This document shows positions 36,394 through 60,092 of a DNA stretch of 64,000 bases, piece after piece. The notes beneath the pieces were generated by a model that saw only the letters and a program-made list of their open reading frames with translations, was not told the origin of the DNA and did no database searches. Source of the stretch: Pseudoscleropodium purum. Lineage: Eukaryota; Streptophyta; Bryopsida; Hypnales; Brachytheciaceae. How positions within the stretch are numbered: position 1 is the first letter of the stretch; the number at the start of each line of letters is the position of its first letter. The translations under genes and the position numbers were made by a program. The stretch covers positions 496,001 through 560,000 of the forward strand of contig OZ017803.1 in NCBI GenBank assembly GCA_963969395.1, read 5' to 3'.

Positions 36394-36401
36394 TATAAAT
36401 A
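36394..36401 (+). promoter_or_regulatory. LTR TATA box
   Basis: TATAAATA immediately downstream of the heat-shock element array; the U3/R border should lie about 30 bp further on. The right LTR has the same sequence at 42505-42512. Confidence 0.75.
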
Positions 36402-36668: not shown

Positions 36669-37017
36669 CTCTTGCAAGATAGAGCATGGATTACCCCTCT
36701 TCTTCAAAGAGTTGTGACGCCTTAGAGGTTGTGGATTACCCACTTCTAAGCTAATATTTTCCTTTTAGCCAGTCTTCATGAGAGTTAGTACATGGACTTG
36801 AATCGTCTTCCTATTTCTACAACTCCAATTACTTTAGAAGTACGTTTTCTATTCAGGTCAAAGGCCGAACTAAGAGATATCATCATTCGAGAGCGAGGCG
36901 AAGAATTCTACTTGAATTTTTTGAGATCTTCACTTCTTGTAGTCATCCCAAGAGTACACGACGCAAAGATTTGTTACTTCATCTACTTGTAAGTCTTCAA
37001 GAAGTACTTTATCTGAG

Positions 37018-37995
37018 ATGGGTGACGTTTCTGCTATCTAGATGAATGACGTCTTGGCCATGCTGCAGTAGTTGCAGCAAGAAAACGCCAATCTGCGAAA
37101 TACTTTGGAACAACTTCAAGTTGCCCACGCTCTAGTCCATATTTCGGCACCAGCGACAAATCCAATTCTGCCGGCGCCAAAGGAGCCTCGAGTAAGTTTG
37201 CCAGACAAGTTCGATGGGAACCGAGCAAAATTTCGAGACTTTGTGAATCAAATTCGACTTGTTTTCCGCCTTCAACCCCAAAAATATCCAACCGCAGAAA
37301 TATAAGTTGGGCTCATTGGAACCTTGCTTACCGGAACTGCGTTATCGTGGTTCTCGCCATTGTTGGAAAAAAATTCTCTACTTTTGGCAAACCTCGATCA
37401 ATTCTTAGAAGAATTCAATAATACTTTTGGAGAAAATGATCGAGCCCTCATAGCAACAACAAAACTTCGAACTCTACAACAACGATCGCGTACAGCCTCA
37501 ACATACGCTGCAGAATTTCGACAACTCGCTTGCGACGTAGAGTAGGACGACAACGCTCTCATCAGCGCGTTTCGATGGGGACTGCGTGACGACGTAAAAG
37601 ACTTGCTATTGAACTTGCCCAGACTGACCACTCTATCTGAGGCCGTGACTCAAGCAGTTAATTGCAATAATCGACTGTTTAAGCGCCGACAAGAGCAACG
37701 ATCAACACCTGAATTTTATCGAGCAGAGTATGCAGCTCCAACTCGCCAAACATCTTCAAGTGTGTCAATGCCAGAGCCCATGCAAATCGACGCCTCAAGA
37801 GTCAAGAGATTGACTCAAGAAGAAAAAGATCGACGTCGAAAGGAAGACTTATACATGTATTGTGGAGGAAAGAACCACCGCGCACACAACTGTCCTGCGA
37901 AGGTTGCAGTTTCAAAGCCGCACAAATTTCGATACACCTCAAGCACTTCCGAGCCGAGATGCGAAGAAATGAACTCGGGAAACGACATCAGCTAG
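37018..37995 (+). pseudogene. gag: Chromovirus gag, interrupted by four stops
   Basis: Starts at ATG 37018 (MGDVSAI). The frame continues to 37995, broken by TAG 37039, TAG 37069, TAA 37303 and TAG 37543. It has a coiled-coil-like N-terminus, the retrotransposon gag core (LPDKFDGNRAKFRDFVNQ, then TALSWFSPLLEKN) and a C-terminal zinc knuckle. In the knuckle the first cysteine is replaced by tyrosine (YMYCGGKNHRAHNC), which a TGC to TAC change would explain. All four stops are one C-to-T change away from glutamine codons. The capsid would package the element RNA. Confidence 0.85.
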
Positions 37996-37997
37996 CC

Positions 37998-40900: not shown

Positions 40901-41648
40901 AGTGTTGGAGCAGTACTTGCGCTGCACCATCAATTACCATCAAGATAATTGGACGGACTTATTGCCACTGGCGGAGTTTGCATACAACAATACATTGCAA
41001 GGGTCTACTTGACAGACGCCTTTCTTTGCAAATTACGGCCATCATCCAAAGTTTGATCAATTCAATCTCAACATCTCAGAGAATTCAGCTGCTACAGATC
41101 TTGCTACCCGACTATTTGATATCCAGAAGCAGATGAAAGAAAAACTTCTTGAAGCCTAGGAGCATCAGAAAACCAATGCAGATAAGTCTCGCAAGCAACA
41201 TCCTTTGATTTCTATTAGAGACAAGGTTTGGCTGCTCCGTCGAAATTTAAAGACTCAACGACCATCTGACAAACTTGACTACCGTCACCTAGGGCCATTT
41301 TCAGTTGCCAAACAAATCAACAAGGTGGCTTATCGATTGGAGCTACCTCCTTCTATGAAGATTCATCCCGTATTTCACGTCTTTCTCCTCGAGCCCTACA
41401 AAGAATCAACACTGCCAGGAAGGATTCAAGAATCTCTGCCTCCAATTGAAATCGAAGGTGAAGAGGAATTTGAAGTTTCAGAGATTCTTGACTCCCGCAT
41501 CCATCGACGACGACTTGAATATCTTGTGCATTGGCAAGGCTACGAAGTCAGCGAAAGAACATGAGAGCTTGCCTCTAATCTCAACAACGCCCCTGAAATG
41601 ATTCAAGAATTTCATCGGCAGTATCCGCAAAAACCAAGGAGCGTTTGA
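37998..41648 (+). pseudogene. pol: Chromovirus pol with C-terminal chromodomain, six in-frame stops
   Basis: One reading frame, shifted relative to gag and overlapping its end, runs to TGA 41646. Domains in order: aspartic protease (LLDSGASACFID, about 38128), reverse transcriptase (CVDY, then YLDDILIYSKN at about 39166), RNase H ([16 protein letters not shown], about 39606), HHCC zinc finger, integrase core (DFIVDLP, then FDRGTQFTSKFW, then the glutamate in NQVLEQYL), and a chromodomain (EFEVSEILDS, then EYLVHWQGY at about 41517) that defines the chromovirus clade. Stops are at 39507, 39933, 40470, 41010, 41157 and 41562. Each fits a single C-to-T or G-to-A change in a codon expected to be Gln, Trp or Arg, so this copy cannot make Pol itself. 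Confidence 0.92.
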
Positions 41649-41775
41649 GTTTAATGCGTCTGGACCAACACCAACACCAAGTTCTGCAAGATTTTTCTTG
41701 GTGCTGGTGCAGATGCAGAGACTTTGAACTAAAACGGTGGTAGTATCGACGAGGTAACAATATACTAGCTCAGTT

Positions 41776-42081
41776 TTGAGGGGACAGGCCTTCGAACTCA
41801 CGTCGGCCGAAAAAGTTGATAACATCGTAATCACCACCTCGCCGATGTCTCATGTTGTCATTCACACGGCCTTATACTTCAGTTTAGCAGCGCTACTATT
41901 TCTTACTGCCGTTGGACTCGCCACCATTCGCCGCCTTTTTGCCGCCAACATTTCGTCTAACGGTATTCTGTACACCGAACATTCTTTCCTTTTGTCGAAG
42001 TCACGTGAAGTCCCACGTGAACATTTTCTTTTCTATTCATGCTATTGGCCCACAGGTGAACTCGTGGAACTCGTTCCTTGA
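41776..42081 (+). CDS. Small open frame with one membrane segment, between pol and the right LTR
   Basis: A 101-residue open frame lies in the 440-bp stretch between the end of pol and the polypurine tract. It has one strongly hydrophobic segment (about residues 32-50, VVIHTALYFSLAALLFL) followed by basic residues. Chromoviruses normally lack a third gene. It could be chance, or 3' leader of the LTR region. I do not recognise a family. Confidence 0.25.
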   Translation: MRGQAFELTSAEKVDNIVITTSPMSHVVIHTALYFSLAALLFLTAVGLATIRRLFAANISSNGILYTEHSFLLSKSREVPREHFLFYSCYWPTGELVELVP

Positions 42082-42092
42082 AGGGGGGGTGA
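42079..42092 (+). other. Polypurine tract of the chromovirus
   Basis: TGAAGGGGGGGTGA directly precedes the right LTR; it is the expected primer for plus-strand DNA synthesis. Confidence 0.85.
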
Positions 42093-42730
42093 TGTCACGG
42101 ACGTGCCATACCGGGCCTTATCCAGTAGTTTCGTCCCTAATAGAGTCTCCACCGCCTTTGCAATAAGGATGCCTCTTAAGAACCTTCTCAAAAACGGTGG
42201 CCTAGTGTACAAGTTGTTTCCAATGATTCTAGTAGATTCCAATAGTCTTCATTAGTTTCTATTTGTTTTCGGAAGCTTCCATAAGCTTCTGGAAGGTTCT
42301 ACTTAGTTCTACTAGTTTTTGGAAGCTTCCACAAGCTTTCGGAAGGTTCCATTTGGTTCCACTAGTTCCCGGAAGCTTCTACAAGCTTCTAGAAGGTTCC
42401 ACTAGATCCTCCTAGTTTCCGGAAGCTTCCACAAACTTCCGGAAAGACCTACGAATGTTTCCAAAGGTTTCCAAGGCCTTATTCCGGAAGGTTCCTTAGT
42501 CTAGTATAAATAGAGAGTTGAGGGCCATTGTCCCTCACTCTCTTCAACACCAGTTGTACCCAGTCATTCTTTGACTTCATATTATCAATACATCTTCTAG
42601 TTTTCTCATCTTGAAGCACGTTCTGAGTCATGTGTGAGGAATCCCTTTACTTCTAGCTTGTTCTTGTCTTTGTTTGAGGTATCCCCTCAAATCTGATCTT
42701 GGTTCCGTCCAAGAGTTGTCGTCCGTAACA
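42093..42730 (+). repeat. Chromovirus right LTR (638 bp)
   Basis: Begins TGTCACGG and ends GTAACA. Contains the same heat-shock elements as the left LTR (42287-42299, 42387-42399, 42417-42429, 42482-42494) and TATA at 42505. Only four differences from the left LTR were seen, all transitions, meaning a recent insertion. Confidence 0.95.
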
Positions 42731-43089: not shown

Positions 43090-44269
43090 TGTAGTAGAAA
43101 ATGGTGTCATAATAAAAAATAGGGTCAATTTAATTCATTGGAGATAAATTTAGAAACTTATTAGATATACTCTGGGATTGGAAATATGTCACTATACAAT
43201 TTTATATAAAATAGTGTGGTTATAAATCCTTGAATTTAGAAATCAATAGAAAAAGAAGAAGGTGATGGACTTAGGATCCACCCAAAATTGTTTAATAGGA
43301 TCAATACTAGAATACTAATGTTGTACAAAGGATGAATGAAATTTTTTGCACTTTATGTGTACTTTTGAAATCTAGCACATGTATTGCAAGGGAAATGCCT
43401 TTTTGTTTTTATGGGGAAGAATTTGTTGGCACTCTAATAGTTCAATGGTGAAGAAATGGCACTTCTTTGGTTTTAGGATTTGCCTTCATTGGATCCTTGA
43501 CAACCTTTTGAGTTTTTTTGGATAGTGTAGGTGACTCCATTGTCCTCCTTATGCAAGTACAATCTTTATATTTAGGGTTTAGGGTTTAATGTTGCAAGCT
43601 AGATGTTTTTTTAGAAATTTTTTATCCTTGTGCATGTTTGGGAGGGACGGTTGTAGTTTATAGGTATTTATATGGTTCAAGTGTTAGGATACCTTCAGTT
43701 TTGGATTGTGGAGTTTGGCTCAAGGTTTTGATTTATGTTTCTAGAGTTTAAGATTTGATTGACCTTTGATGGTGTTAAAAATGTTGTATTGAAGTGTAGG
43801 TAGAGCAATTTTATTCAATCCTACTACCTTAAAGTACCACAATGAGTAAGACAAGCATAGAAATGGAATTTTTTCACTACCATGCTTTGTATATTCATCT
43901 CTTGATGCTACTACAATTTTGATTATATTTAATTAGAATTTTATATTGCACATCCAATGATTGCTCCTTCATTTCATGTTGTTCTTGGTTAGGGTTTATG
44001 GTTTCAACTTGTTTTGCAAATCTTGTAAATGATACATGGCATGAGGTTTAGAATTTGTTTTCAATTTTTGTTGGAATTCTAGTTCTTTGTTTGTTTGCAA
44101 TTTGTGTTGGAAATGTTATCAATGATCAATGTTGGACTTTTGATGTAATGTTTTTAGTTGCTCTAAATTTCTTTTATACATCCTACAAATGTTAACTTGT
44201 GACCAATTCATGGGATTTACAATGTTTTCCAGGGTCTATTTGACAACTTGCAAAGAGATTGTAGCAAAC
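43090..44269. other. AT-rich spacer, possible copia 3' LTR and flank
   Basis: No gene. A doubled plant telomere-type TTTAGGG occurs at about 43573-43590. The last eight bases (TAGCAAAC, 44262-44269) form the left target duplication of the large hAT-like element. Confidence 0.4.
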
Positions 44270-44282
44270 CAGGGTTGTCAAA
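44270..44282 (+). repeat. Left terminal inverted repeat of the giant hAT
   Basis: CAGGGTTGTCAAA, a typical hAT terminus (CAGGG start). It is followed by a GGACGTCC/GGACGGAC-rich block that also occurs just inside the right end (about 60037-60062). Confidence 0.9.
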
Positions 44283-44423
44283 TCGGACGCTTCAGGGTCA
44301 CCGGACGTCCCGGACGGACGGACAAAACGGATGGACGGACGGACTTGTCCAACCCTAAGCGGACACTTCGGGCAGGAAATTCTGCCCCTAATCAAAATTT
44401 TCCCTACTCCTGACCGGAAGTGT

Positions 44424-44488
44424 TTGACGTGGCTAGCCACGTTGCAATCGGCATGCGCCTTTTTGACGTGGCCAGCCACGTTGCAATC
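44424..44488 (+). repeat. Two subterminal copies of a palindromic motif
   Basis: TTGACGTGGCTAGCCACGTT, followed by GCAATC, starts at 44424 and recurs with one change at 44463. ACGTGGCTAGCCACGT is a perfect 16-bp palindrome. A candidate transposase or host-factor site. Confidence 0.6.
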
Positions 44489-44505
44489 AGCGCGCTGACG
44501 TAGAG

Positions 44506-44582
44506 GCGGGGACGTACTTAGGTTTGGGCGGGGACGTCATGGTGAGGCGGGGACGTACTTCGGTACGGGCGGGGACGTATTC
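44506..44582 (+). promoter_or_regulatory. Left subterminal cluster of the GCGGGGACGTACT motif
   Basis: Four copies starting at 44506, 44528, 44547 and 44569, spaced 19-22 bp, that is about two helical turns. The right subterminal cluster (59784-59925) has the opposite orientation, as expected for transposase binding sites at the two ends. Confidence 0.8.
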
Positions 44583-45283
44583 GTGTCTAGGCGTGTTTGG
44601 GGTTATTCTAAAGTCTTCTATATTATTTCTGAAAAGACAATGCTTTGCTGACCTTTTAATTACTCTACCTACTTTGATCAAAAAAGATATCTGAGTGAAT
44701 GTTTTGGTGCCCCATTTGTTATCCTCTAAAGTAAAATACTTTAATTACCAAACCATTGTTAGTCACTATTTATGGATGATCTCTTTTTTCTCCAAAGGAC
44801 CACACAATTTTATTTCTTGTTTTAAAAAAAAATAGAAAGTGATTGCTTTTATGGCCCCTTGGGCTTTGGTTACCTTAACTCCTGCTTTTGATAGAAAAAA
44901 AAAAGAAGTAGTCAATGCTTACATACACCACTGCTTTTATATTCCAATTATCTACAATTCTATGAATTCATTAAATTATTCATTTCATGAGAAATTAATA
45001 CATTTCACTTTCCTGAGTTTCCTCTTACAAAGTCATGGCTATGGACAAGATAATTCAAATGCATCACACAACATCAAGCTACAAGCAATATATATGCATG
45101 TTTCTTTGCGAAAAACACAAATAATCTGGGATTTCGTCCATACATAATCCGATAACATGACTATGAAAATGAGACTTCCAGACTTTGTCAACTTGTGCTC
45201 CTCTCATATTGTTACCTCACAACTTACTACTCATTCTTTACACATAGGTCATTTTAAGAATTGCCTACATGTCCTACGTGTGC

Positions 45284-48200
45284 TCATGGTTCGCCTACAT
45301 CTTTGAAACGACTTGATCGGCGAACTGCTTGAGTAGAAGGGCCTGCTCGCTCAACATGGCGAATGAGCAAATCGTCGTCATCCGGGGCTTTGTCACAGTC
45401 CTCGTCGTACTCATCATCCCCGTCTGCATAATCTTCACTTCCAACATGTTCATCTCCGTCTGTTTGTTGACCTTCAAACTCTGAGTTCTCATTGCGGACC
45501 TCCGTGATTCTATTTCCACCACTACGGTTCAACCGCAACATTTTGTGTCTTCTAGCATCTGGGTCCTCCGCATCAGAATTTATAACTGGGCCTCCAAGAA
45601 TCACAAATGCTGGGGTTGAGGATGTAGGTCCCGGAGTATAAGTCTGCAAAAATGGCAATACTTGTTGCTCAGCTAACCTGACTCCGACTCCACGATGCGG
45701 ATGTTTGCGAGCTATTGACACTGTGTCTCCATGGTCTCCATCATTGTTTCTTCCTCCACGACCACTACGACCACCACGACCACCACAACCACCACAACCG
45801 CGAGTAGTATATTGACCCACCGCATGGACTACAGTGCTTTCAGAGGGTCTACCATCTGCTCCGATATTGGGAGCATTATCCACTACGACATTTCCATCTC
45901 CCACTGAGCGTAACCCTTCTTGAAAAGATTTGGGACTGGAATTTCCAGATATATTCGGAGAAGAATGTTGCCGAGGGGGCACAAACGTACAATGCTCTTG
46001 CATTGTACTAGGAATTGCTACAGAAGAGGGTGGATGGATACGATCGACTCCTCGAGCGCCTCCTCTGTTCCGTACACGTTGGACATCAAATAGCCTCGGA
46101 ATATTACCAGTTGGTTCAATTATGTCGATGGTCTCGCTTGTCCTTGTATTTTCGAGGCTCGCTCTCAAATGTCTATGTACATCTGCGTTGACATTGTTAG
46201 GTCCGCCCAGCCTGTTGTCGCTTACAATCATTGGAGCATCCTCAATAGGCCCTTCATGGTCTAGAACTGTAGGGTTTGTGCCATTTCCTCCATTTCCACC
46301 ATTTCCACCATTTTCATCATCTCTATTTTCACGATTGTTTTGAGGTGGAGGAATGTCATCATCATTGTCTTCACCGTTGTCGTTGTCGTCATTTTGAACA
46401 TTGTCATCTCCAACTATGGCTTCATCCTCTTCTACAGGAAAAACAAAAGGATCTACTTCATTACCAATTTCATCTTCTTGTTCTTCCTGATGTATAGGAG
46501 ATGGACTAAGACGAGGATTGGGAGCCCAAGGTCCCCAAGCTTCATGACGAATGTTGTCTTCCATATCATCTTCTTCCCCGTAATAGTTTCTTGCTTCTTC
46601 GCGGTGGTCCATGTCTCGCCCCCAACCATGTGGGTTTGCTTGGGGTGCAGGTGGTGGCCGATTCGCTTCCATGTCGTCTTCTTCTTCTTCTGCCGCTAGC
46701 ATAGCATCAAATTCTCGATGGCGGTTAGGTTCATCGACTGGAATGGGTCCAAGTTCATCCGGATCCGAATCCTCTGATACGTTGTTCAAATCATACTAAC
46801 GAACTGGATCTGCTCCAGGTTTTTGACGAAGGACGCGACTGTTGGTATAAATGTACACCAAAGTCTCAGCCTTCTCCACTGCTAGACGATTTCTGTTCCT
46901 GTTGTGGACGAAGGAATACATACTAAAATTTTGTTCACAAGACGATGCTGAACATGTAAGGGCTAAAACACGCTTCGCAATTTTGGACAAGAAGCAATCT
47001 CCAATTGCTTTCCACCATCGATGTGGAAGTAACTTTGCTTCCCGAATGTCCAGTGATGCGTCAGGACTATAGGGTCCTTCACCCTCCACGTATTGCACAT
47101 ATTCTTGTATGACGTCATCAAAACGCACACCCACCACATCCTTCATTTTTTGAACAACCCGATGTAGTGCACGAAGGGCCGTTCCATCTTCCCTTAGAGC
47201 TGGGTTGTCCTTGATATAAGGATTCAACAATGCCCCAGCATAGTGCACGTCGGTAAAAAACATGTTCCACCTCTCCTCAAATGTCTCTTCCATGACCGTA
47301 GCTAGGTGATCCGGAAGGAAGAAAGGACCCTCTCTGAGCTGAAAAACATGTCGTCGCAACCTGTGCATTGTGATCCATGCCTTGCCCATAGCTGGTTCCC
47401 GTCCATCAAACACACGCAAGGCCTTCAAAACGTCTTCCACAATGAACACGTAATTTTTACACCTCTGCCAAAATGTTAAATCATCAATGGTATTCAGTAC
47501 GCACATTGCGTCCCTCTGGTTCTGCGGTCCGTTTTGCCTATTCCGAAGTGCTGCAACATAATTTTGGACTCGTGGTTGTCCTCCCAACTACTCCAAGACA
47601 GGTTTTAGTGTCACCAGTCGTCGCAACATGAGAAAGTGCGAAGCAAAACGAGTTTCAGCCGGTACTACAAGCTGCAAGTTTGGACTCAACTCCCGGAAAG
47701 TTGACATTGTTGCATGGTGATTTCTGATATAATTGCACACTGTCTTTGCCCTTGCTATTAAATCTTTGAAATCCGGCAACTTGGCCCAATCTTCAAGCAA
47801 CAAATCCAATGCATGTGCCGCGCACCCTTGCTTAAAGATGTGCGGATATGTGCGAACTACGTCATCCATTGCACCGAGCATGTTACTCGCATTGTCTGTA
47901 CAAATTTGAGTTACATTATTGGGACCCACTTTCTCGATGAAGGTTTTCAATTGGTCTGCTATATAGACCATTGTCTTGTTCTGCCCTGTAGTGTCGATGG
48001 ACCCCATAAACACATCACCTGCGGGACATGACATCATGACATTCATGAGAGGCCGTCGATTTACATCGTCCCAACCATCCGTGCAAATCGTTACCCCATA
48101 ATTTTTTACTGCAAAACTTGTTTTTGCAGATATCTCATTCTCAATCTGTAGCTTCTTCGGTTCAATCAAGTTTGTTCTCAATTGGTGGTACGAAGGTGGA

Positions 48201-48805
48201 GAATATTCAAATCGTGCCAAAGAAGTTGCCTTGACTGCCTCAATGAAAGCAGGATTTCTTGTAATGTTGAAGGGTACATTTGCCTCATAAAAAAAGCTTG
48301 CCCACTTTTCATCCAACTCTTTCCTCTTTGCAATGTTGAAGGCATCTACCATTTGTTGTTGACGTAATGATCTTGATCTTGTGAAATTCGATGCTGCTTC
48401 ACTGTTTGATGTTGGTAGTTGGTCTTCATTTTCATTTAGAACCTCCAAACGCCTTCTTCCCCCTCTTTCTCCTTCATTCCGAGCATGTTCGTTTATATTT
48501 TCCGTGGCAACATTTGGAGTTGCTACGGATGGATCGCTCGGAATTGATTCATCGTCATGTGGGTCCTCCAAATTTGTGCGTTGTGGAAAAAATCCAGCGC
48601 AGTTGGCAAATTTATGTCTCACCGCTCGAGGTATTTTGGAACACACTGCTCGCTCACTTTTTGCTTTATAACCGTAGTGTACAAAAGCACGCTCCCGTTT
48701 GTAAGCCGTTGTCCCGCCACAAAAGACACATGTGACTTTAGATCCATCAATAGAGAAATCATACCACGGTTCCCACTCTCTTGTGGTTTTTCGATTTGTC
48801 GCCAT
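45284..48805 (-). pseudogene. hAT transposase (BED finger, DUF659, dimerisation) with acidic tail, two in-frame TAGs
   Basis: One continuous frame from ATG 48805 to TGA 45284, broken only by TAG 47588-47590 and TAG 46796-46798. N-terminus: BED-type finger region (WEPW, CVFC, FVHYGYK). Middle: DUF659/RNase H core with TDGWDD and CTDNASNMLGAMDD, which supply two of the expected acidic residues, then AAHALDLLLEDW. After the first TAG comes the hAT C-terminal dimerisation region (HRWWKAIGDCFL, SSCEQNFSMYSFVHNRNRN). After the second TAG comes a tail of about 500 residues rich in Asp, Glu, Asn and Gly that ends SRFKDVGEP. The transposase would cut and paste the element through its terminal repeats. 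The stops suggest recent inactivation, or the second TAG is the normal end and the tail is spliced or separate. Confidence 0.85.
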
Positions 48806-49029
48806 CACAACTTACAAGTTGGAACTCCTCACTTGTGCTTGTATTGTCTTCTACAACTTTGTACTTGTAAAAGTAGTTAGCGTCGGTTCCCTACTTGAAC
48901 TGATTTTTACATCACCTCAGCCGAGAACCAAGGCCGCTTTCCACCCAATAAACTCTATCAAGAAGCTCTGAGAGGTCCGAGAATGATGAGGTCCAGGGGA
49001 AAACGTGCCTTTAGTTCTGCCTACTCGTC

Positions 49030-49037
49030 CTTATATA
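49030..49037 (-). promoter_or_regulatory. TATA box of the transposase gene
   Basis: On the minus strand TATATAAG, about 225 nt upstream of ATG 48805 and 34 bp downstream of the motif cluster at 49071. Confidence 0.6.
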
Positions 49038-49070
49038 CTCCCTCCTGGTGGCTGGTAGAATTCCACGTAA

Positions 49071-49535
49071 GGGCGCGGACGTACTATACAAGGGCGGGGA
49101 CGTACTAGAGAGGGGCGGGGACGTACTTGTCAGGGCGGGGACGCTAGGGCGGGGACTCAGGGACTCCCGACTCCCGCACTCCCGACTCCCGCACTCCCGC
49201 CCCAGAAGGCGTTCAGGCGAAGACGTCAGGGCGGGGACGTACTTGTAGGGGCAGAGACGTACTTGTCCGGGCGGGGACGCTAGGGCGGGGACTTAGGGAC
49301 TCCCGACTCCCACACTCCCGACTCCCGCACTCCAGCCCCAGAAGGCGTTCGGGCGAAGACGTCAAGGCGGGGACGTACTTGTCGCTAGGGCGGGGACTCA
49401 GGGACTCCCGACTCCCACACTCCCGATTCCACGCGTCAAGGCGTTCGGGCAGGGACTTCAGGGTGGGGACGTTGGGGCGGGGACGTATTTTTGTATGGGC
49501 GGGGACGTACTCGCGGGGACGCTAGGCGGGGGAGA
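49071..49535 (+). promoter_or_regulatory. Motif-cluster promoter region of the transposase gene
   Basis: About a dozen copies or half-copies of GGGCGGGGACGTACTTG, arranged in roughly three higher-order repeats of about 130 bp that also contain GGGACTCCCGACTCCC-type blocks and AAGGCGTTC. Relative to the gene the motif reads AGTACGTCCCCGC, the same orientation as at the RING gene and its paralogue. Lies directly upstream of the TATA box. Confidence 0.75.
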
Positions 49536-50039
49536 GATTCAAATCAGTTTTGGGTTTCCCTCCTCAAAACCTTCGAGGGAAGACATTTCAAATACTTGTA
49601 CTTGCACTCTACAGCTGCCCCCCATTTTTGCAGATTTCCTAAGATATGAAGTATTCAAGCATTAATTACTCATTCACTACATCATTCTAAATATCAAAGA
49701 TAGATGCTACAAAAAATGCGGTTTTAGTATTTAAGAAATTGTGTATAACAAATCAATTGAAGAAACGTTGAATTCGTCAAAAACGGGAAACATCAAATAA
49801 ATTACGGGTGAATTGGAAAAAAATGACAAAGAGAATTGCAACAACATTAAGGATTGGACAGAAATATGTAGAATCCATAGAGAGACATTGCAACCGGTTT
49901 TTTAAAAGGAAGGCTATACATTTAAAAAGTGGCACAAAAATGGAAGGAAGAAATGAGAGAATAAAAAAATGGTAGAATATATGGGTGTAAGAAATGAACG
50001 GTTTATCGAAATGAAGGTACATGAAGAAGTTAGAGAACC

Positions 50040-50520
50040 AAAAAAAATAACTACGAGATGCATCACATGGAGGAAGACATATAAGTTACAGAATCAAATG
50101 AAAGAAATTTCGGGATAAAAATGTGAGGTGAGACAGATGAGTTAGAGAATGAAATGAAAAAAATAATCGAATAATCATGTAAGGAGAAATAAATAATTCA
50201 GAGAACCAAATAAAAAAATACTGAAATAATCATATGAGGGTAGATAAATAAGTTAGACAAACAAATGGGCAAAAAATTGGAATAACCGTATAGGGGGGGG
50301 AGATAAACAAAAGAAAGACTCAAATAAATAACAAATTGGACTAACCAAGAAAGGGGACATAAACAAAAGAGAGACTCAAATAAATAAAAAATTGGAATAA
50401 TTTAACGACGGGATATAAGCTATAGAAACAAATGAAGAAAATAACGGAATTACCATATATGGGGATATAAAAATGTTTGAGAATCAAATGAAAATTTGTT
50501 GGACTCATCATACAAGGGTT
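50040..50520 (+). repeat. Diverged tandem repeat between the two divergent promoters
   Basis: About eight units of 54-62 bp with the theme ATAAA(T/C)A-AG-GA-ACAAATGAA-AAAATTGGAATAA, separated by G runs. It sits between the transposase promoter and the RING gene promoter; function unknown. Confidence 0.6.
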
Positions 50521-50582
50521 GAAATTGAATGAAATGTGAGCATTTTTTATTGTGTTGTGAAATGGTTCAGGATTTAGGCTAA

Positions 50583-50603
50583 GGGTTTAGGGTTTAGGGT
50601 TTA
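50583..50603 (+). repeat. Three plant telomere-type repeats
   Basis: GGGTTTA repeated three times. Such short runs (telo-boxes or interstitial repeats) are common in plant DNA; here they lie between the tandem repeat and the RING gene promoter. Confidence 0.6.
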
Positions 50604-50794
50604 ACAATTTTTTTTATTTATCCTTTTAACTATTAGTAATGTTAATTTATTTTTCTCTTGGATGATGGGAGCTTCACGGGTCTTTGACAACTCACATGAA
50701 ATAAAAGATGAGTGACATTAAATGCAAGGTACAAGGTAAATCTTCCAAAATCTTTTTTTTTTATTCTAATTTTCTCCACCTACCGCCAGTGACG

Positions 50795-50921
50795 AGTACG
50801 TCCCCGCCTTGGACAAGTACATCCCCGCCCAGGGCAGAAACGTCCCCGCCTATTTTGAGTACGTCCTCGCCCTGACATCGAGTACGTCCCCGCCTTGACA
50901 ACGCGGACCAGCAGTATATAT
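50795..50921 (+). promoter_or_regulatory. Motif cluster and TATA box of the RING-H2 gene
   Basis: Five copies of AGTACGTCCCCGCC (one with ATCCC, one with TCCTC) at 50795-50895, then TATATAT at 50915-50921, about 130 nt upstream of ATG 51051. Same order (motifs, then TATA, then start) as at the other three genes. Confidence 0.75.
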
Positions 50922-51050
50922 GCGCTTCCCCGCCTTTTTAGCAACTGCCTCACAAACTCCCGTGTGCTCCACCTCTAAGCTAGTTGCCTAGGCGTCCTTG
51001 TGAGGTCCTTTTTATATTACGCTCTTTACTTCAACCCAAACCGCCGTGTG

Positions 51051-53261
51051 ATGGACCCTGCAGTGAAGATGACGAAGGCCGAACGAGACAGAACAAGAAA
51101 GAGGACTGGACAGAAGCAACGGAAACGGATGAACGTTTTAAACAATCCGTTGAAGTTGGCATTCAGGGGATGGGAAGATGAACCTGATCCATGGAATATG
51201 GACACTTGTGCCAATTACATTGAATGGTGCCACATTGGCAAGTCTTTTCCCATAGCCCGGCACAACTATCACCGTCGCTTCCACAAGGCCAATTTGAGGT
51301 TCTGTACCGACGACGCATTTAAGAATCGTTGCATTGAAGTCTATCAAGTGTTATACGATAGACCAACAGTGGAACGCAATGAAATTAACCTTTTCATTGC
51401 AAGAGGGGTACATGCAGAGGTCAAGCTAGGGAAGAGGGTGGATTGGTCAACCATCAAGGAGAGAGGTTCCAAAATAAAAGTTCCTCATCCCACCAATGGA
51501 TTGATTCCAATGGGTGTGCGAAGGTACCCTAACGGCGGATTGGGGTTCGTGAGGCCACTAACTGAGTTGCCCCCTAACACATATGTAACCAGTGACTCTT
51601 CTCCTGATGATGACTCTGACGGGACGTGCACTCCACCGCGTGCTCTAGGTAATAGAGTGGAACATCGGGTAAAAAGAAGAAGGGAGAAGGAAATGAGCAC
51701 AGAAGAAGTTGTCTCGGAAGCAGTTTTAAATGACCGACTACAAGATTCAATGGAAGTAGAAGATCTTCGGCTACCAAATGAAGCTGTCGAAAGTGAAGAA
51801 GATACAATCCCAGCCTTAAAGAGTAACCTCAACGAAAAAAGAAAGGAAATTCAAAACTTGTTAGAAGACACTCACAAGTTGAAGGTCGAGATCCAACAAA
51901 AGAACGACGTCATTGACCGACAGTCCCAAGAAATTGCCCGCCTTACAAGAGCTCTACAAGCTGGTAATGTATTCAGCGAAGGCCACGTTGGTGAAGGTCT
52001 GCACAAAGCTGGTCACCCGTTTCACTTTACTGTAGGTGCCGAAGAGCTAGAAGTGCTTCGTGGAAAAAATGTCGAGCTCCAGAAACATTTGGATGCATTG
52101 GTGTCACAGTATTATGAGTGGAAGTTGGCGTGTGTATTTACTGTGGACAAGAACCGACAAATGGGAGCAGAATTGAAGAAAATTGCCAATCATTATGCAG
52201 TGTACAATCAAGAACGTGTTTTTGGCTTAACATCATGGGAACTAATGGATGAGTTATTCTCGGACAAAATGGAGACCAAAGTTGGAGTTGGAAATCAGAC
52301 CATCATTGATTGGCCTCGAAATGGGTGGGATTTTGAAAATGAAAGGTCTGCCCATGTGACTAAACCGAGTACATTGTTGTGGCCAAAACCACCGAGCTTT
52401 GTGTTCGATGGTACACAATGTCCAATGTGTTTGAATGCCTTTGGCCCCGAAGGTGGATTCCAATTGGGCACATGTGAGCATTTGTATCATCCAATTTGTT
52501 TGATTGCATTAATGGTCAATCGAAGGCGTTGCGTACTTTGCAAGGCTCCTTTCCATGAGCGTTTGTACAAGCTATTTGGCTTGTACGAGCATATGCCGCC
52601 AAGCTGGGAATTTGATATAATGAATGCTCCAAATCATCCACAGAAATGGGGAGAAGACCTCATTTGGAATTGGCGTTATAAGTATCACTCTTTAGAGGTC
52701 TCTGGGCTTTCCAACAACTGGGGATGGGAATCAAACCCAACTGAAGTTGTTCGTGTGTGCCACAATTTGATTAAAGGCACGGACGCTATTAGTGAAGGAA
52801 GAAGAAATTTCTTCTACCAATGCTTCAATGGCTATTGGGATGGAAATGAGCATCAATTTCGATTTGGACCACATCCAAAGGGTTGGATTTGGGGCAACGA
52901 CGGACAACGTATCACCGATGACGACGGAGTTCAACTTGTGGATCCTGGTGAATATGTACCTCCTACCGCACGAGAAAGAGTGATGATGTCTGAATCTGAA
53001 TGGAGAGAGCAATTCAAAAATGATGCTGTAGACTTCTTGCTAGAAGAACACAGTCCGGGAACTCGTATAGCTCTTCAAGAACTTCAACAATCTCAAATTC
53101 TGAGGGGCCTACTGGAGGAGGATGGACCAGCAAGACGAACACGCGGTGCAATGCGGCGACTTCGTTTGGACTCCAATGAAGATGATATTCCAATGTCCGG
53201 GACGCATGACACCGAGGCCGGTACAAGTGGTACCGCAAATAGCCTAGTTCATTTGGACTAA
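51051..53261 (+). CDS. RING-H2 / coiled-coil protein carried by the giant hAT
   Basis: An intact 736-residue intronless protein. ATG 51051 was chosen because the paralogue at 56210 starts at the same aligned methionine (MDPAVKMTK vs MDTSPRMTK). Residues 1-166 are the conserved module shared with the paralogue: basic start, then DPWNMDTC, YIEWCHI, FHKANLRFC, FKNRCIEVYQVLY and LGKRVDWSTIKERGSKIKVP. Next is an acidic and basic linker with TPPR, a coiled coil (about 250-310), and a RING-H2 domain with C457, C460, C475, H477, H480, C483, C494 and C497 (Cx2C-x14-CxH-x2-Hx2C-x10-Cx2C). A Trp-rich region and an Arg-rich tail follow. RING-H2 domains usually recruit ubiquitin E2 enzymes, so an E3 ligase role is likely; the substrate is unknown. 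I recognise no named family for the N-terminal module. Confidence 0.88.
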   Translation: MDPAVKMTKAERDRTRKRTGQKQRKRMNVLNNPLKLAFRGWEDEPDPWNMDTCANYIEWCHIGKSFPIARHNYHRRFHKANLRFCTDDAFKNRCIEVYQVLYDRPTVERNEINLFIARGVHAEVKLGKRVDWSTIKERGSKIKVPHPTNGLIPMGVRRYPNGGLGFVRPLTELPPNTYVTSDSSPDDDSDGTCTPPRALGNRVEHRVKRRREKEMSTEEVVSEAVLNDRLQDSMEVEDLRLPNEAVESEEDTIPALKSNLNEKRKEIQNLLEDTHKLKVEIQQKNDVIDRQSQEIARLTRALQAGNVFSEGHVGEGLHKAGHPFHFTVGAEELEVLRGKNVELQKHLDALVSQYYEWKLACVFTVDKNRQMGAELKKIANHYAVYNQERVFGLTSWELMDELFSDKMETKVGVGNQTIIDWPRNGWDFENERSAHVTKPSTLLWPKPPSFVFDGTQCPMCLNAFGPEGGFQLGTCEHLYHPICLIALMVNRRRCVLCKAPFHERLYKLFGLYEHMPPSWEFDIMNAPNHPQKWGEDLIWNWRYKYHSLEVSGLSNNWGWESNPTEVVRVCHNLIKGTDAISEGRRNFFYQCFNGYWDGNEHQFRFGPHPKGWIWGNDGQRITDDDGVQLVDPGEYVPPTARERVMMSESEWREQFKNDAVDFLLEEHSPGTRIALQELQQSQILRGLLEEDGPARRTRGAMRRLRLDSNEDDIPMSGTHDTEAGTSGTANSLVHLD

Positions 53262-55295
53262 GTGCACTTTTGCGTACTTCAAGCATTTGGAAAAATGTAA
53301 ATATATAGCTATGTAAAGGCTGCTAGTTTTTATCTTTTTAGCTACTATTATATGTGTGGAACTTTGTTTGATTACATTGTTGACTTTGTCCAATTTTTCA
53401 ATACCATATTGTGCGACACATATGAAATAAAAATGCTCTTTTTATGACCTACGTATTACTTTCATTTTTAAAGTTTAAGGTGCATACAACTGGAAATGAT
53501 TTCTTGGTAATGCAACTTTAGAATGTTTTTGGTTTCTTGAATCCCTGAGTCCCAGCCCAACGTCCTCGTCCAAGTGTCCAAAGTCGAATCATGACACCTT
53601 TGAAGGAGTTTGGGGGTTTGGGAGTTATGAATTCAAAAAGTCCCATTGTTCCTAAGGGAGACAAATGCATTTTTGGGCAAGTATGTACGGGCTGAATTTT
53701 CGTCCAGATTTTTCACAATGCCTTTTTTCAGAGAAAAAAATTGATAAGCTTCATGGAAATATAATTTTTTTTCAATAGGTGTATGGGAACAAAAATTATG
53801 CCCAAATAAGCTCAAAATAGTGGACAAGAGGCAGTTCGGTCAGCCAAAAAATTTTCAGCATACTTTGAATTTTTTCTGCGGAATTTTTTTTCTCATAGAT
53901 TAAATTTTTGTCTATCTGGAAAGCTTTGATTAATTTCATTTGGATTTGTTATGAGGAAGTTATGGACATTCTAGTTTTTCTGGCAATTACAGCATGTTCT
54001 TGGAAAAAACGACTTGCACAATTCATTTGTCAATGCATGCTTTGCATTTTTTCCAAAAAAAATAAATTTGCGTGGTTTGATTTACTTTGTAGAACAATCT
54101 TCCTATTGGATTAGTGCATTTAATTCCATCTACCCCATATTGATATTTTAGGTTTTCATTTTGTCTAGTACGTATTTCTAGTTACCAATTGTTTTAAGAA
54201 TGAAAATTAAGTTTTCATTTTTTTTTTTTTTTCTTTGGACTCTGAACTCTAATCTCCACTATGAAGATTTAAAGCTCGGAGCTTTGTAGTGCGAAAATTT
54301 TAAGTTGAAAATGTTCAAAGTCAAAAAATCCAGTTGCTCAATGTGTGGAAAAGCTTGCTTTTTCTACTTTAAACGCAAATATCTTGCAATTTATTCAATC
54401 ACAATTTTTGGTTTTTTTCCCACACTAGTTTATACTAGTCAGGTGTAATATCCTACGGTTAGATGTGAAAATAAATGAATTTCAATATTTTCTTAGTCTT
54501 TGCTATAGAAATGGCAGTTTTGAGTGTTTTTGGGCTAGATAAGGCCTTGGCCCTTTAGGGATTACACTTTAACTCACAAAAAACGGGAGCTATTCAATTC
54601 ATAAGGAATGTGCATACAATACAAATACACACCTAAAAAATTAAAATGGCACTGTATACATATGAAATGTCTAAAAGTTTGCAAAAGAGCAAAATGAATT
54701 TCTTATGAATGCAAAAGTTTGACAATTAGATCACAAAATAGAATTAAAAAAGTAAAAAAAGTAAAAATTATATTGAAAGACACATTTCAATGTACACATT
54801 GCTGGATTAGAATTCACGCCCTAATTAATATTTATATGAATTATGTAATTTAATTTTTTTTCTAAATTTTTTATTTATTGCATTAACACCTAATGGACCA
54901 GGGTTATTTTTTAAAAAGACATTGTGCAAAAAGCCAATTTTTGGGTATGTTATTAAAAATTCAAAAATTCAAAAAGAATTGTTTCATAAAAAATTCAACC
55001 AAACATCCTTGAAGTTCAGTACTTTACAAAAGTATGGTCAAGATATGAGATGTTTAAGTAAAAATAAGTATGAACCCTAAACCAACACAATAAATGTATA
55101 TGAAATGAAGCAATCCAATTTTGCAAGTGACACGTCTTTAGCCAAAAATAATTTTTGTATTTTGGATGGGTAATACCGTAGAATATGAATATATTGATAA
55201 AAATTGTCTCATTACATGAGTACAACTGTACAGAACTAAAAAAGAACATGAAAATTTAAAAACCTCGAGATAGCTATGTAATTGGATATTGCTAA
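53262..55295. other. AT-rich spacer inside the giant hAT
   Basis: Two kilobases of AT-rich sequence between the convergent RING-H2 gene and its paralogue. No open frame of protein character. A RING-type cysteine pattern that would complete the paralogue was not found here. Confidence 0.5.
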
Positions 55296-56210
55296 CTAAT
55301 TCCTTGATGTAGCAAGCTCTAAAGCATGTTCCAATCGTGCAATTTCTTGTCTGAGATTGCTGATGACTTGGTTCTTTTCTTCCAACGCCGCCCTCGACGT
55401 GTGCCTGTAATCGTGCAGACGATTAATTTCTTCGTGTTTTTCAGCAAGTTCGTTCCTCAAGGCCGAGATTGTATCATATACATTTCTTCTATTTTCAGTG
55501 GGTTGTGCGTAAACTTCCTTGTGCACTTCATTTTGGATTTCATGTTGAGGTTGAGGATCTCGAGCATATTGTAGGGCCCTCCTCCGCCTACCACGTTGTT
55601 CCCCTTTGGCCGTCAGAGGACGCGGTGGAGTACGTGCTCCATTTGAATCGTCATCCGTCGTAGAATCCTCGGTGTCATCATGAGCTGTAGGGGGATTTAC
55701 GATTGTCTTCAAGTGCCCCAACCCACCTTCGGGAAACGTTAGAACACCCATTGGAATCAGTCCATTGCTTGGATGAGGAACTTTTATTTTGGAACCTCTC
55801 TCCTTGATGGTTGACCAATCCACCCTCTTCCCTAGCGTGACCTCTGCGTGTACTCCTCTTGCAATGAAAAGGTGAACTTCATTGCGCTCCACCTTCGCTC
55901 TATTGTAAAGGACTTGGTAGACTTCAATGCACCGATTTTTGAATGCATCATTCATGCAATATCGCAAATTTGCTTTGTGGAAGTATCGGTGGTAGTGGTG
56001 TCGTTCTTCAGGAAAGGCCTTGTCGATGTGACACCACTCAATGTAATCCGCACACGTGTCCATGCTCCACGGGTCCTGTACTTCCTCCCACCCCTTGAAA
56101 GCAATTTTTAATGGATTTCGTAAAACATGCATCCGCTTCTTCTGTACCTGTCCACTTCTCTTTCTTGTTTTGTCTCGCTCGTTTTTCGTCATCCGTGGTG
56201 ATGTGTCCAT
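55296..56210 (-). CDS. Short paralogue of the RING-H2 protein, lacking the RING
   Basis: 304 residues from ATG 56210. The first 165 or so residues align without gaps to the RING-H2 protein: same DPW-MDTC, YIEWCHI, FHKANLR, FKNRCIEVYQVLY and GKRVDWSTIKERGSKIKVPHP. The middle keeps the acidic run and RTPPRPL, and the C-terminal 60 residues form a similar coiled coil (ISALRNELAEKHEEI, IARLEHALEL). It stops with TAG before any RING, so it may compete with or partner the longer protein through the shared module and coiled coil (inference). The N-terminal module is better conserved than the linker, which argues for selection after duplication. It is divergently transcribed from the kinase gene. Confidence 0.82.
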   Translation of the reverse strand: MDTSPRMTKNERDKTRKRSGQVQKKRMHVLRNPLKIAFKGWEEVQDPWSMDTCADYIEWCHIDKAFPEERHHYHRYFHKANLRYCMNDAFKNRCIEVYQVLYNRAKVERNEVHLFIARGVHAEVTLGKRVDWSTIKERGSKIKVPHPSNGLIPMGVLTFPEGGLGHLKTIVNPPTAHDDTEDSTTDDDSNGARTPPRPLTAKGEQRGRRRRALQYARDPQPQHEIQNEVHKEVYAQPTENRRNVYDTISALRNELAEKHEEINRLHDYRHTSRAALEEKNQVISNLRQEIARLEHALELATSRN

Positions 56211-56339
56211 CGCACGATGTTTGTGCAACAAAAATGACGTGGAATGTGATGTAGGGCCCACTGAGACGCCCAGACAACCAGCTCAGAGGTGGCGCACGAG
56301 GGAGTTCAGAGGGCAGAAAGTGAGGAGGCGGGCACGGCC

Positions 56340-56516
56340 TTTTATACCGGGGAGCGCGGACGTCAAGGCAGGGGCAGGGACGTACTCGCATCCAGGGCGG
56401 GGACGTACTGGGTATAGGCGGGGACGTACTCGCGACAGGGCGGGGACGAACTGGGGGCAGGGCGGGGACGTACTCGCGGGGTGGGCGGGGAAGTGGTTTT
56501 TGCCTTCCCTATATAT
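56340..56516. promoter_or_regulatory. Bidirectional motif-cluster promoter of the paralogue and the kinase
   Basis: About six copies of GGCGGGGACGTACTCG at 56354-56495 lie between two outward TATA boxes: TATAAAA on the minus strand (56340-56346, 130 nt before ATG 56210) and TATATAT on the plus strand (56510-56516, about 150 nt before ATG 56664). One cluster thus serves both genes. Confidence 0.78.
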
Positions 56517-56663
56517 TTTTTTTTTGCTCATTTTGACATTGCCAGGCCTTCACTTTTAGCCTCACGTGTTAGTTCGCGATTTGCGGCCTATACAGTGAGT
56601 CGGAGGGTGCACAGGTGTGGCGCTTTATTTGTACGGGAGATTTTCGAATTTTTTTCGAATACT

Positions 56664-58241
56664 ATGGCTGCATCAGGAAGTGGTTCAACGGGGAAACGCC
56701 CAATGGCCTGGGACTTGGATGTGCCCATCGAAGAAATAGTTGTTGCCGAGCAGAGCACTCAACCGTCATCATCTTCGAATCCGACATCATCAAGTCATAA
56801 GAAAGTAAAACCGGCGCGACCCGATTGGCCTCCGATAGAGTACACACAAAAGGCACGATCAATAGGTGTGGATTTTTATCGACGACGGAGTTTAGCAATG
56901 TTGGAGAGGGAGTACATCAACAAGAACGAAAATGGTTACCATGAACTCTTGGAGAAGCTACGTTACGAGATTGAAGTGACTATGGAATCATCTGAAGACT
57001 TCAACAATTACCAAGATTATTGGTTAGCTTCGGAGTGGCTTGAAAAAACTGTGAAGGCTTTGGCAACAAATATCGTGACGCAGTGGCGTTACGATGCTAA
57101 TAAAAAGGAGAATAGAACTGACTGGGATGTTGCAGACGAGGAACTTTTTGCAAAACTATCGATGATCGAGACATTTTGCCAAGGTTTTTCAAAATCACGG
57201 GCACGAGGAAAATTACCATGGAAGGAATCGATGGAGAATGCTGTATTGACGCACTGCGTTAGTGGAACGTTTCAGTGGCTTGACAGCTCAATAAAAGTTG
57301 TACAGATGCCGGGATTTACAACGGAAGGAGGGTATGGGACTGTGATGAAGGTGCACATCACAAGACTGAACAACATGCCAATGTGGATGGATTTTGCCGA
57401 GAAACGTCTCAAAGAAGAGAATCAGAAGAAAAAACGTTTGGAAATCATAAATGAGGCTGGAGGATGTCCCGTGAAGCATCCGGGCATCATCAGACTTTCG
57501 TATTTGAATCCCAAAACAATGGCCGGTTATTCGTTGTGGTGGAATGGTGGATCTTTGGCAAGTTTTTGGAAGAATATGGACAACAAGGTTTCTGAGGTGC
57601 TGGAAATCGAAGACATTGTTAAGCAACACGACTCAGAGCTAAGCAAAGCGCAACTGGAATGGGTTGCAACGTATAGGAAAAATCGCGTTGCATTGGCGTT
57701 GTCCTTGCTTGTGACAGTCTGGAAATGTCACAATGAGAACTACATGCACAACGATTTATCTCCATCCAATGTGTTGCTACATTTTGACCCTTGAAAGAAG
57801 AATAGAATATACATTGGTATATGTGATTGGGGAATATCAAGCCGAGTTGTGGAGAAGGAGCCATCAAAATATGGCTATGACAGCATGGAAAAGCTAGCAA
57901 AAGTGAAGCAGGTGAAAAAATTTGTTGCTCCAGAATTGTTCTATGTATACGGAAGTATAGGTTCAGAGAACTCGCTGGAAGTGATGCAACGAAGGCATTT
58001 GTATAGTGTAGCAGCTGATACATATTCTGCAGGATGGATAGCACAAAAGATTTGGAATGAGGAGTGGGATTCCCAGTACTTCGTTAAAGAAAAATGCATG
58101 AATTATGCATTACTTAAAACACATCTTCAAAGCTTGCAGAAGGAAGATGTGAATGATCGGGCAACTATAGGAGATGTTTTGGAGACATTGAGAAAACCAC
58201 CGTACGGTTGGCTAATGCCAGAATGTTGTTATCGTAGATAG
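56664..58241 (+). pseudogene. Protein kinase carried by the giant hAT (one or two in-frame stops)
   Basis: Start ATG 56664 (MAASGSGS). The frame is open to TGA 57792 and continues in the same frame to TAG 58239. The N-terminal 220 residues are of unknown function. The kinase domain has a glycine loop (GGYGTV, 222-227), a candidate lysine (K247 in FAEKRL), the catalytic loop HNDLSPSNVL (362-371), then directly after the TGA a DWG metal-binding motif (388-390), the APE motif (VAPEL) and the alpha-F DTYSAGW. All key catalytic positions are present, so the ancestor was probably active; HND and DWG replace the usual HRD and DFG. The TGA fits a CGA arginine codon with C to T. Past TAG 58239 the frame stays open through an Arg/Gly-rich stretch (RRGGRRRRGYEGR), so that stop may also be secondary. 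Confidence 0.78.
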
Positions 58242-59783
58242 GAGTTTAGAGGTCGTATATATTCTAGAAGAGGTGGTAGAAGAAGAAGAGGTTATGAAGG
58301 ACGTAGTGTAAGTTCTTTGAACATGCTTTATGTACTCGGAATTATCCGAGAATTATATTATTTTAAAAAAGTAAAAATTTTCTGACACTTGCGTTTACCT
58401 TAATTACTTAATGTTTTGGAGTATTTTTTTACTATAAACATTCCAAAATTGCCATTTTTACTGCGAAGACCAAAATGTAATAAAATAAAAGAATTAAACA
58501 CATATAACGGTAGGATTTTGCAGTATGCTAATTTAAAAAGATGTGAAATGAATTCCCGATATTTTTGCTTGGAAGATTGGGAGATATGGACAGTTTGAAA
58601 GTTGAAACAAATAGGATTACTTTATTTCATTGGAGGGTATAATGTTGGCTAAAACTAAAACAATACTTATTCCTGCAAAGAATTAAACAAGTGTGGGCTT
58701 CCTTTAAAAAAGTGTGAGCTTTGTTTTGGAAAAAATTTGTAGAATACAAAAAATTGGGAGTATTACAGTCAAAAGTTCTAATCTTGGAGGGAGGGAGTGA
58801 ATTGGAGAATTAAGAAAAATTTCAAAGCATGTGGATTTCAGTTTGGAGAGTCTTTATGGAAAGAAAAAAATGGAAATGTTGGGGACTTCCGGACTTGGGG
58901 TTTAGGTTTGTTGAGTCTTTCTGGAATGCAAAACAGAAAAAAGAGGGTTTAAGTTTAAGATTTTAATTTTTTAGGGATTTGTTGGATTGAATTTTTTGGG
59001 GGGAGTACGTGGGTTTAGATTTGGTGGAAGTTGGTGGAAGATTCAAAAATTTCGGAGTGTGTGGGACTGTGGATTTATTGTTAGAGGGACTTGATGCAAT
59101 GGAAAAAGATAGGGAGGGTTTGTTTTTGCATTTGGCTAAAATTGATGGATTAAAAAAATATTTGGGAGTGTGTTAGTTTAGGTTTAGAAGGGCGTGGAGT
59201 AATAATTTTTTTTGGGGGGGGATTACAGTTTAGGTTTACCAAAGACTTCATAAATTTTTACCATATGATTTCAGTCAAGTAAAGTATAAGATCCTACAAT
59301 TAGATTCTATTTTTTATTTGTTTGTTTGTTTTGTTAGATGAATGCAACAGAAGGGGCAATTTTGAGTGGTTTTGGACAAATAAATGATCTTGGTCCTTTA
59401 GGAGTTAAAATGTAAGATATAAAAGTAAGAAGACTATATTCAATTAGACAAGATGTTTCACCATTTCTAAGTATATGAACTAGGTGAAAAATGGCTAAAT
59501 GAAGATCCAACATTATCCCATGAACGTCCAGAGTCATCTCTAGAATTGAGAATTTTGGAAAAAACCGTTATAATGTGTGGTTTCAAATAATATTTCGAAA
59601 GTCTTATACAAAGGAAAGTTATAGATTTAGAGTTTTAGATTCCATCCATACGGTTAGATTCATCAATGTTATCTCCATTATTTTTTTACAAATTTTGAAA
59701 GGGGAAATCTAAAATTCCTTCTAAATTCAATTACAAGCAAAATATTATCAATTTTTCAGTCAAATTTGTTGGATTAGATTTGA
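58242..59783. other. AT-rich 3' region of the kinase gene inside the giant hAT
   Basis: The first 140 bases continue the kinase frame in Arg/Gly-rich form. The rest has no convincing open frame; it contains G-rich and T-rich runs near 58860-59230. Confidence 0.45.
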
Positions 59784-59925
59784 AATACGTCCCCGCCCTG
59801 AAATATGTCCCCGCCCAGGAGTACGTCCTCGCCCTAGAATACGTCCCCGTCCTAGAATACGTCCCCGCCCAGGAGTACGTCCCCGCCCTAGAGTACGTCC
59901 CCGCCCTAGAATACGTCCCCGCCCT
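59784..59925 (-). promoter_or_regulatory. Right subterminal cluster of the GCGGGGACGTACT motif
   Basis: Eight near-tandem copies of (A/G)(A/G)TACGTCCCCGCCCTAGA, spaced about 18 bp, in inverted orientation to the left subterminal cluster at 44506. Confidence 0.82.
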
Positions 59926-60071
59926 AATGCCACGCTGGACGCCACGTGTTGACGATTTTCGTTTCCATTGGGTGATTTTTCATCCGCTAAAAGTCAGTTG
60001 CCCGTTGACCATTTCGGACGGACACAACTTCAATCGGACGTCCCGGACGGACGGACGGTCTGTCCGACCAG

Positions 60072-60084
60072 TTTGACAACCCTG
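60072..60084 (-). repeat. Right terminal inverted repeat of the giant hAT
   Basis: TTTGACAACCCTG, exact reverse complement of the left 13 bp; followed by the right target duplication TAGGAAAC (60085-60092). Confidence 0.9.
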
Positions 60085-60092
60085 TAGGAAAC

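Follow-up and report, generated by a model that had tools for sequence, protein, structure and literature searches.

A multi-gene hAT transposon carrying RING-protein and kinase genes in the moss Pseudoscleropodium purum

The hAT transposons Ac/Ds, Tam3 and Hermes, each with one gene in less than 5 kb, share an 8-bp target site duplication (TSD), short terminal inverted repeats (TIRs) starting with CA and subterminal repeats, and they encode a DDE transposase with a CxxH motif and a hAT dimerisation domain. Here we describe an element of the moss Pseudoscleropodium purum that has the same features and lies at positions 44270-60084 of the window, the whole 64,000-nucleotide stretch under analysis (C47:496001-560000 of the assembly searched, which comprises 313 Mb in 52 contigs). 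Its family differs from Ac/Ds, Tam3 and Hermes in that it reaches 16 kb and contains four genes, in a transposase that ends in a long acidic tail and in arrays of a short motif at its promoters. The four genes encode a transposase, a RING protein, a RING-less paralogue of that protein and a protein kinase. The initial annotation of the window knew of no described hAT family with this gene set, and the literature that we searched likewise yielded no hAT transposon in which RING and kinase genes are combined.

Close parallels come from two groups of elements with accessory genes. In rust fungi, the portions of the published account considered here describe TET-carrying hAT7 and IS3EU elements as DNA transposons with accessory genes, with IS3EU families combining transposase, TET/JBP and alpha-kinase genes (PMC12730594). 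These elements differ from the moss element in being fungal, in a TSD of 7 bp or 6 bp, in the TET/JBP dioxygenase and in the alpha-kinase, which belongs to another kinase family; a word search of the same text gave no mention of a RING gene (PMC12730594). A Pfam search of seven frames of the window element gave no TET/JBP match at E-values up to 1, and its TSD is 8 bp as against the 7 bp of TET-positive hAT7. In Arabidopsis, VANDAL elements with VANC anti-silencing proteins contain element-specific tandem arrays of short motifs that are noncoding and vary between copies, and in the parts of that account considered the moss family resembles them in its variable noncoding motif arrays and in having accessory genes beside the transposase (PMC5735166). 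However, VANC proteins contain DUF1985, for which the seven frames of the window element gave no Pfam match (E up to 1). The VANDAL transposase is of the Mutator type, and we know of no RING or kinase gene in VANDAL elements. Finally, a word search of the main text of a 2026 review on plant gene capture gave no hAT, RING, kinase, ubiquitin, bryophyte or moss (PMC13317346). DNA transposons with accessory genes are already known, and the combination of RING and kinase genes in a hAT element appears to be new.

The initial annotation had placed perfect 13-bp ends and an 8-bp duplication, matching at seven positions, around the four genes. Exact matches to the TIR sequence CAGGGTTGTCAAA occur in the window only at 44270-44282 on the plus strand and, as the reverse complement, at 60072-60084 on the minus strand, with 0 mismatches between the two 13-bp repeats; allowing up to 2 mismatches gives 5 matches against 2.5 expected. 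The flanking TSD reads TAGCAAAC on the left (44262-44269) and TAGGAAAC on the right (60085-60092), a 7/8 match. Ends and duplication stand as annotated, and a DUF659 hAT transposase, a RING protein, its RING-less paralogue and a kinase were all identified between them, yet the imperfect duplication is untypical of the family, as 24 of 30 copies have an 8/8 TSD.

These 30 copies were identified by searching the genome with the ends and the proteins. The left 371 bases gave at least 30 left ends, all 30 of which are adjoined by right ends, and one extra right end was found on C43. Both junctions were read in all 30 copies, with a TSD of 8/8 in 24, 7/8 in four (the window copy included) and 2/8 in two (C48:662665 and C49:5096075). 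The target sites are 30 different ones and the TIRs have at most one mismatch per end. Ends produced by chance were rejected because the 30 copies have both ends in common at 30 different target sites. Element lengths range from 15,815 to 34,301 bases with a median of 16,558 (n=30), the window copy being the shortest, and 19 copies are below 17.1 kb. Transposase, RING and kinase genes are present in 30/30 copies, one set each, and the RING-less gene in 11/11 copies read at length, so that the RING and kinase genes are not confined to the window, and the ten other copies read have the gene order of the window copy. No 13-bp ends around the transposase alone were seen among the best 40 of 74 left-end and the best 40 of 1456 right-end candidates; scored candidates for the genes were the best 40 of 1125 for transposase, 61 of 1624 for RING and 82 of 1321 for kinase. 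Copy counts are lower bounds, with short derivatives possibly missed. Among the matches scored, the young-family loci within elements number 30/30 for RING, 30/30 for transposase and 30/31 for kinase, the odd kinase belonging to a partial copy at C43:12.56 Mb. This locus (G000:C43:12562678-12566047) has a young-family right end (84%) and kinase (96%), with no left end or RING among the matches listed and no terminal repeat found in the 103 bases examined.

A false unit might have arisen if elements had inserted into one another, or if a segmental duplication happened to lie between ends that do not belong together. Nested elements are present in some copies, and 11 of the 30 exceed 17.1 kb; one such element of 3.3 kb, with TG...CA ends and a long frame, lies in the kinase region of both the C44:72589-94228 and C41:24152849-24172333 copies (93% identical), and the C44 copy has a shorter 1.9-kb relative of it at another place. 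However, all but two of the 30 copies are flanked by a 7/8 or 8/8 TSD of their own at distinct targets, which rules out both origins, and ten other copies are collinear with the window copy; we give a false unit virtually no credence. The window sequence at 44270-60084 is thus confirmed to be a genuine hAT transposon with several genes, as one member of a family of copies, and comparison of the copies indicates that the whole four-gene unit is mobile, in agreement with the initial annotation.

The transposase is encoded on the minus strand as one frame of about 1,170 codons running from 48805 down to 45284, which includes an acidic tail formed by the last 487 residues (isoelectric point, pI, 4.5). 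Its annotation as a DUF659 hAT transposase was borne out, whereas its extent had to be corrected to this single frame, broken in the window copy by two in-frame TAG codons. Pfam matches were obtained for DUF659 (E 1.1e-37) and Dimer_Tnp_hAT (E 1.8e-9), the hAT dimerisation domain PF05699 scoring 37.7 bits against a cut-off of 21.4, and a match to Hermes was obtained. Among the transposase relatives listed, the one named plant relative comes from the moss Ceratodon purpureus (P0115). We aligned the query with the 52 sequences among P0057-P0115 that are longer than 850 aa. D243, D304, C328 and H331 are present in 53/53 rows and E624 in 52/53; we take D243, D304 and E624, together with the CxxH motif formed by C328 and H331, to be the hAT catalytic residues. 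The region of a BED-type finger gave no Pfam BED match, with C26 and C29 in 40/53 rows and H43 in 44/53. The gene is stop-free over its full length in 7/30 copies. As judged from the alignment, the transposase keeps the full hAT catalytic set. The 8-bp TSD, short TIRs, catalytic D/D/E with CxxH and dimerisation domain place the element in the hAT superfamily. Staggered cuts of 8 bp are established for hAT transposases, and transposition of the moss element follows the same route, as the TSDs and the residues show here.

The RING protein gene (51051-53261, plus strand) is open over 736 codons and encodes a basic N-terminal domain, coiled coils, a RING finger at residues 456-498 and a C-terminal part. 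As a single protein, the window RING finger scored 23.9 bits in Pfam, under the cut-off of 27.3, and the family profile matched the RNF24 RING at E 9.2e-8 in a comparison with solved RINGs. The ligand positions are C457, C460, C475, H477, H480, C483, C494 and C497; among 25 rows C457, C460, C475 and C494 are invariant, and H480, C483 and C497 are present in at least 90%. Row set A1 was taken without P0025-P0031, and A3 without P0008, P0011, P0019, P0023, P0025 and P0027-P0029. The N-terminal domain has a pI of 10.1 and a confidently predicted fold (mean predicted local distance difference test score, pLDDT, 84; predicted template modelling score, pTM, 0.76). The RING-less paralogue (55296-56210, minus strand, 304 codons, open) has an N-terminal domain that is 77% identical to that of the RING protein, with a pI of 9.6, and also keeps the coil without a RING. 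The RING gene is stop-free in 19/30 copies, in one of which the match ends at residue 730 of 736, and the RING-less gene in 9/11 copies read. These features suggest that the RING protein is a putative ubiquitin-ligase-like protein.

The kinase gene was found where it had been annotated, at 56664-58241 on the plus strand (525 codons plus stop), but the window copy is broken by one in-frame TGA. In an unbroken copy the kinase domain scored 36.5 bits against a Pfam cut-off of 31.7, and the closest solved structure was CDK13 (E 0.0014). An alignment (A2) of the query with 17 of 25 kinase matches showed K247, E264, N369, D388-W389 and A422-P423 to be invariant in all 18 rows, with D364 in at least 90%; the protein has a DWG motif in place of DFG. 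Seven of 31 loci are stop-free over the full length. The protein has the signature motifs of a eukaryotic protein kinase in a DWG variant, and its function is a prediction.

The window copy has decayed, with two stops in the transposase and one in the kinase, and the positions of stops and frameshifts differ from copy to copy. In the aligned copies 426 variant sites are private to one copy and 43 are shared, and approximately 84% of the private variants are C>T or G>A. The C>T change rates are 2.2% at CG, 2.0% at CHG and 0.38% at CHH, and this bias of the decay to CG and CHG indicates that the copies were methylated. The young family is a recent burst whose methylated copies are now decaying. 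In each of the four genes the synonymous counts agree with neutral change; these and the variant analyses excluded copies whose gene length deviated by at least 30 bases, keeping 10 of 11 for transposase, 11 for RING, 11 for RING-less and 9 for kinase. The case for function therefore rests on older divergences. Plant transposons often capture genes, and with the neutral decay of the genes within the burst, the accessory genes might be regarded as host genes captured by chance and now carried as passive cargo.

The older relatives of the gene set speak against this explanation. Among the matches scored in the genome searches, 21 RING loci are divergent, with pieces of 31-62% identity that for the most part contain stops, and so are 44 kinase loci. 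Counting only matches below 70% identity, a kinase lies head-to-head within 12 kb at 19 of the 21 RING loci, compared to approximately 0.003 expected per locus. Three of the RING-kinase loci, at C42:18.97, C45:21.81 and C45:22.36 Mb, are 94-96% identical in DNA. One of them forms a complete older element of about 16.5 kb at approximately C45:21.804-21.820 Mb, with the ends CATGGTTGTCATA and its complement and the TSD GTACTATG on both sides (8/8), in which a head-to-head kinase and RING pair is followed by a broken DUF659 transposase. Compared with the young transposase, the pieces of this one, which also cover the tail, show 45-68% identity; no transposase was found in the stretch examined at the C42:18.97 and C45:22.36 loci. 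As read from coordinates, two divergent transposases have the position and orientation expected relative to a RING-kinase pair, at C45:12379222 (about 6 kb) and C40:10835846 (about 25 kb), and another adjoins a kinase at C1:20667664, with 3/6 divergent transposase loci otherwise placed or farther away. Because a divergent family with ends and an 8-bp TSD of its own likewise encloses transposase, RING and kinase, nested insertion cannot explain the gene set. Passive cargo is further opposed by full-length RING and kinase relatives that keep their ligands and catalytic residues, and by the lack of a close host RING or kinase gene among the matches scored, and we consider it improbable. Capture in a single copy was rejected, the gene set being present in 30 copies and in the older family. 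On this comparison the gene set is old rather than a one-off capture, and the RING protein and kinase are long-standing parts of a hAT lineage.

The fourth gene seems to have a different history. With the young element turned round, the order is kinase, RING-less, RING, transposase, and in the older element it is kinase, RING, transposase, such that the RING-less gene occupies the place of the older family's RING gene. No second, RING-less gene was seen in the complete older element, which makes the fourth gene look like a later duplicate. The simplest reading is that the RING gene was duplicated and that the original then lost its RING domain, giving rise to the RING-less gene. In a tree built from the N-terminal domain, the RING and RING-less proteins of the young family cluster with the old RING protein and P0001 (support 96/98), in an order that the tree does not settle.

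In addition to the genes, the element is marked by the 15-bp motif GGGCGGGGACGTACT. At up to 3 mismatches the window contains 31 sites, every one of them within the element, where they cluster close to either end and in the two divergent promoter regions. Four sites form a left subterminal array (44504-44581, plus strand). The divergent transposase/RING promoter region has nine sites on the transposase side (49071-49511, plus strand), where the length varies from copy to copy, and four on the RING side (50795-50895, minus strand), and the divergent RING-less/kinase promoter region has six (56372-56497, plus strand). The right subterminal array has eight sites at 18-base spacing (59784-59924, minus strand). 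Just inside it, a stretch at approximately 59602-59790 matches eight other places in the genome at 85-87% without array or end, and is perhaps another element family. The whole genome contains 290 exact sites and none of the reversed control; 100 of the 290 were listed, and all 100 lie within elements (11 of the 30), the elements together making up 0.18% of the genome. Ten other copies contain 25-32 sites each, with the left array partly missed where the read stretches are short, and array lengths vary between copies. A second end repeat, CGGACG, is distinct from the motif and lies at 44289-44345 and 60007-60068, with 15 CGGAC/GGACG pentamers in the first 120 bases of the element and 13 in the last 120. 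The older family has arrays in three of the four corresponding places, namely both promoter regions and the transposase-side end. The core GTCCCCGCCC is found in 21/24 young sites and the older-family core GTCCGCGCCC, with one base changed, in 9/14 sites; the remaining 48 kb of the window contain neither core.

Considering these results jointly, we lean towards reading the window element as a decayed member of a four-gene family that was amplified recently and belongs to an old hAT lineage whose accessory regulators would act at the element's own motif. Several observations weigh against this reading. In two of 30 copies the flanks do not form a matching TSD, a comparison of synonymous with nonsynonymous changes within the recent burst gives no sign of purifying selection in any gene, and a motif array is missing from the kinase-side end of the older element. 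In the RING protein, H477, the sixth of eight expected positions, is not conserved in all relatives (25 rows), and Foldseek matched the RING with weak E-values only, the best being 0.35 at a probability of 0.95. A PDB search with the N-terminal domain gave no match, which leaves DNA binding by this domain a guess from its charge. Additionally, the RING-less gene is known from the young family only (11 copies read).

How such regulators might act can be sketched in two ways. In the first, the RING protein would work as a ubiquitin ligase on the DNA of the element itself, recruited through its basic N-terminal domain or through the transposase, and would remove or mark proteins that silence the element or limit its transposase. 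The kinase would act in the same circuit, and the RING-less copy, which keeps the targeting domain and the coil and lacks the RING, could be a competitor that damps the RING protein. We put forward only tentatively this ubiquitin-based, sequence-specific counter-silencing circuit, with RING at a family-specific motif, a kinase partner, a RING-less decoy in the youngest family, and motif and recruiting protein changing together by family. In the second, the arrays would bind the transposase, for which Ac and TnpA of Spm provide precedents, and RING, RING-less and kinase proteins would tune transposase amount or activity so that copy number stays bearable. Such self-limitation would fit arrays that adjoin both ends and not promoters alone, an acidic tail of 487 residues at pI 4.5 as a plausible modification target, and the presence of only about 30 young copies; however, the different end repeat CGGACG could serve the transposase. 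We regard self-limitation as possible but doubtful. Our inclination towards anti-silencing comes from the parallel with VANC proteins and variable motif arrays, in the parts of the VANDAL account considered (PMC5735166).

Elsewhere in the window, a long terminal repeat (LTR) retrotransposon at 35982-42392 has identical 300-base repeats (35982-36281 and 42093-42392) and reverse transcriptase and protease frames, and is a young insertion. A Bet v 1 / polyketide-cyclase-like frame lies at 30626-31126 on the minus strand, flanked by two similar-looking frames (29470-29868 and 31434-31961) that have no Pfam match. This Bet v 1 type gene, the CG and CHG preference of the C>T changes and the transposase relative from Ceratodon purpureus are in keeping with a plant, and probably a moss, as host. 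Three further frames without Pfam match (744-1271, 16224-16991 and 25007-25384) all begin with an MGMCAI-like sequence and resemble one another in a C-terminal stretch, two of them with 72% DNA identity (repeat family D19). Irregular direct repeats with spacings of approximately 180-550 bases occupy 7987-9352 (families D4, D5, D7, D10 and D11).

Environmental contigs contain 31 RING, 25 kinase and 64 transposase relatives, the full-length ones up to approximately 60% identical; they lie mostly on short contigs. In the moss element the transposase is accompanied by a RING-like protein and a kinase, which remain associated across divergent families, and by family-specific arrays. Detailed knowledge of how plant transposons evade silencing is available for few systems, and this hAT element may be a genetic parasite that brings its own regulators. 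It offers separable, testable parts, namely a single motif, a putative targeting domain that exists both with a RING and in RING-less form, a kinase and a transposase, in a moss host for which haploid genetics is available. The finding is also a warning that what is annotated in such genomes as a RING or kinase gene family may belong to transposons.

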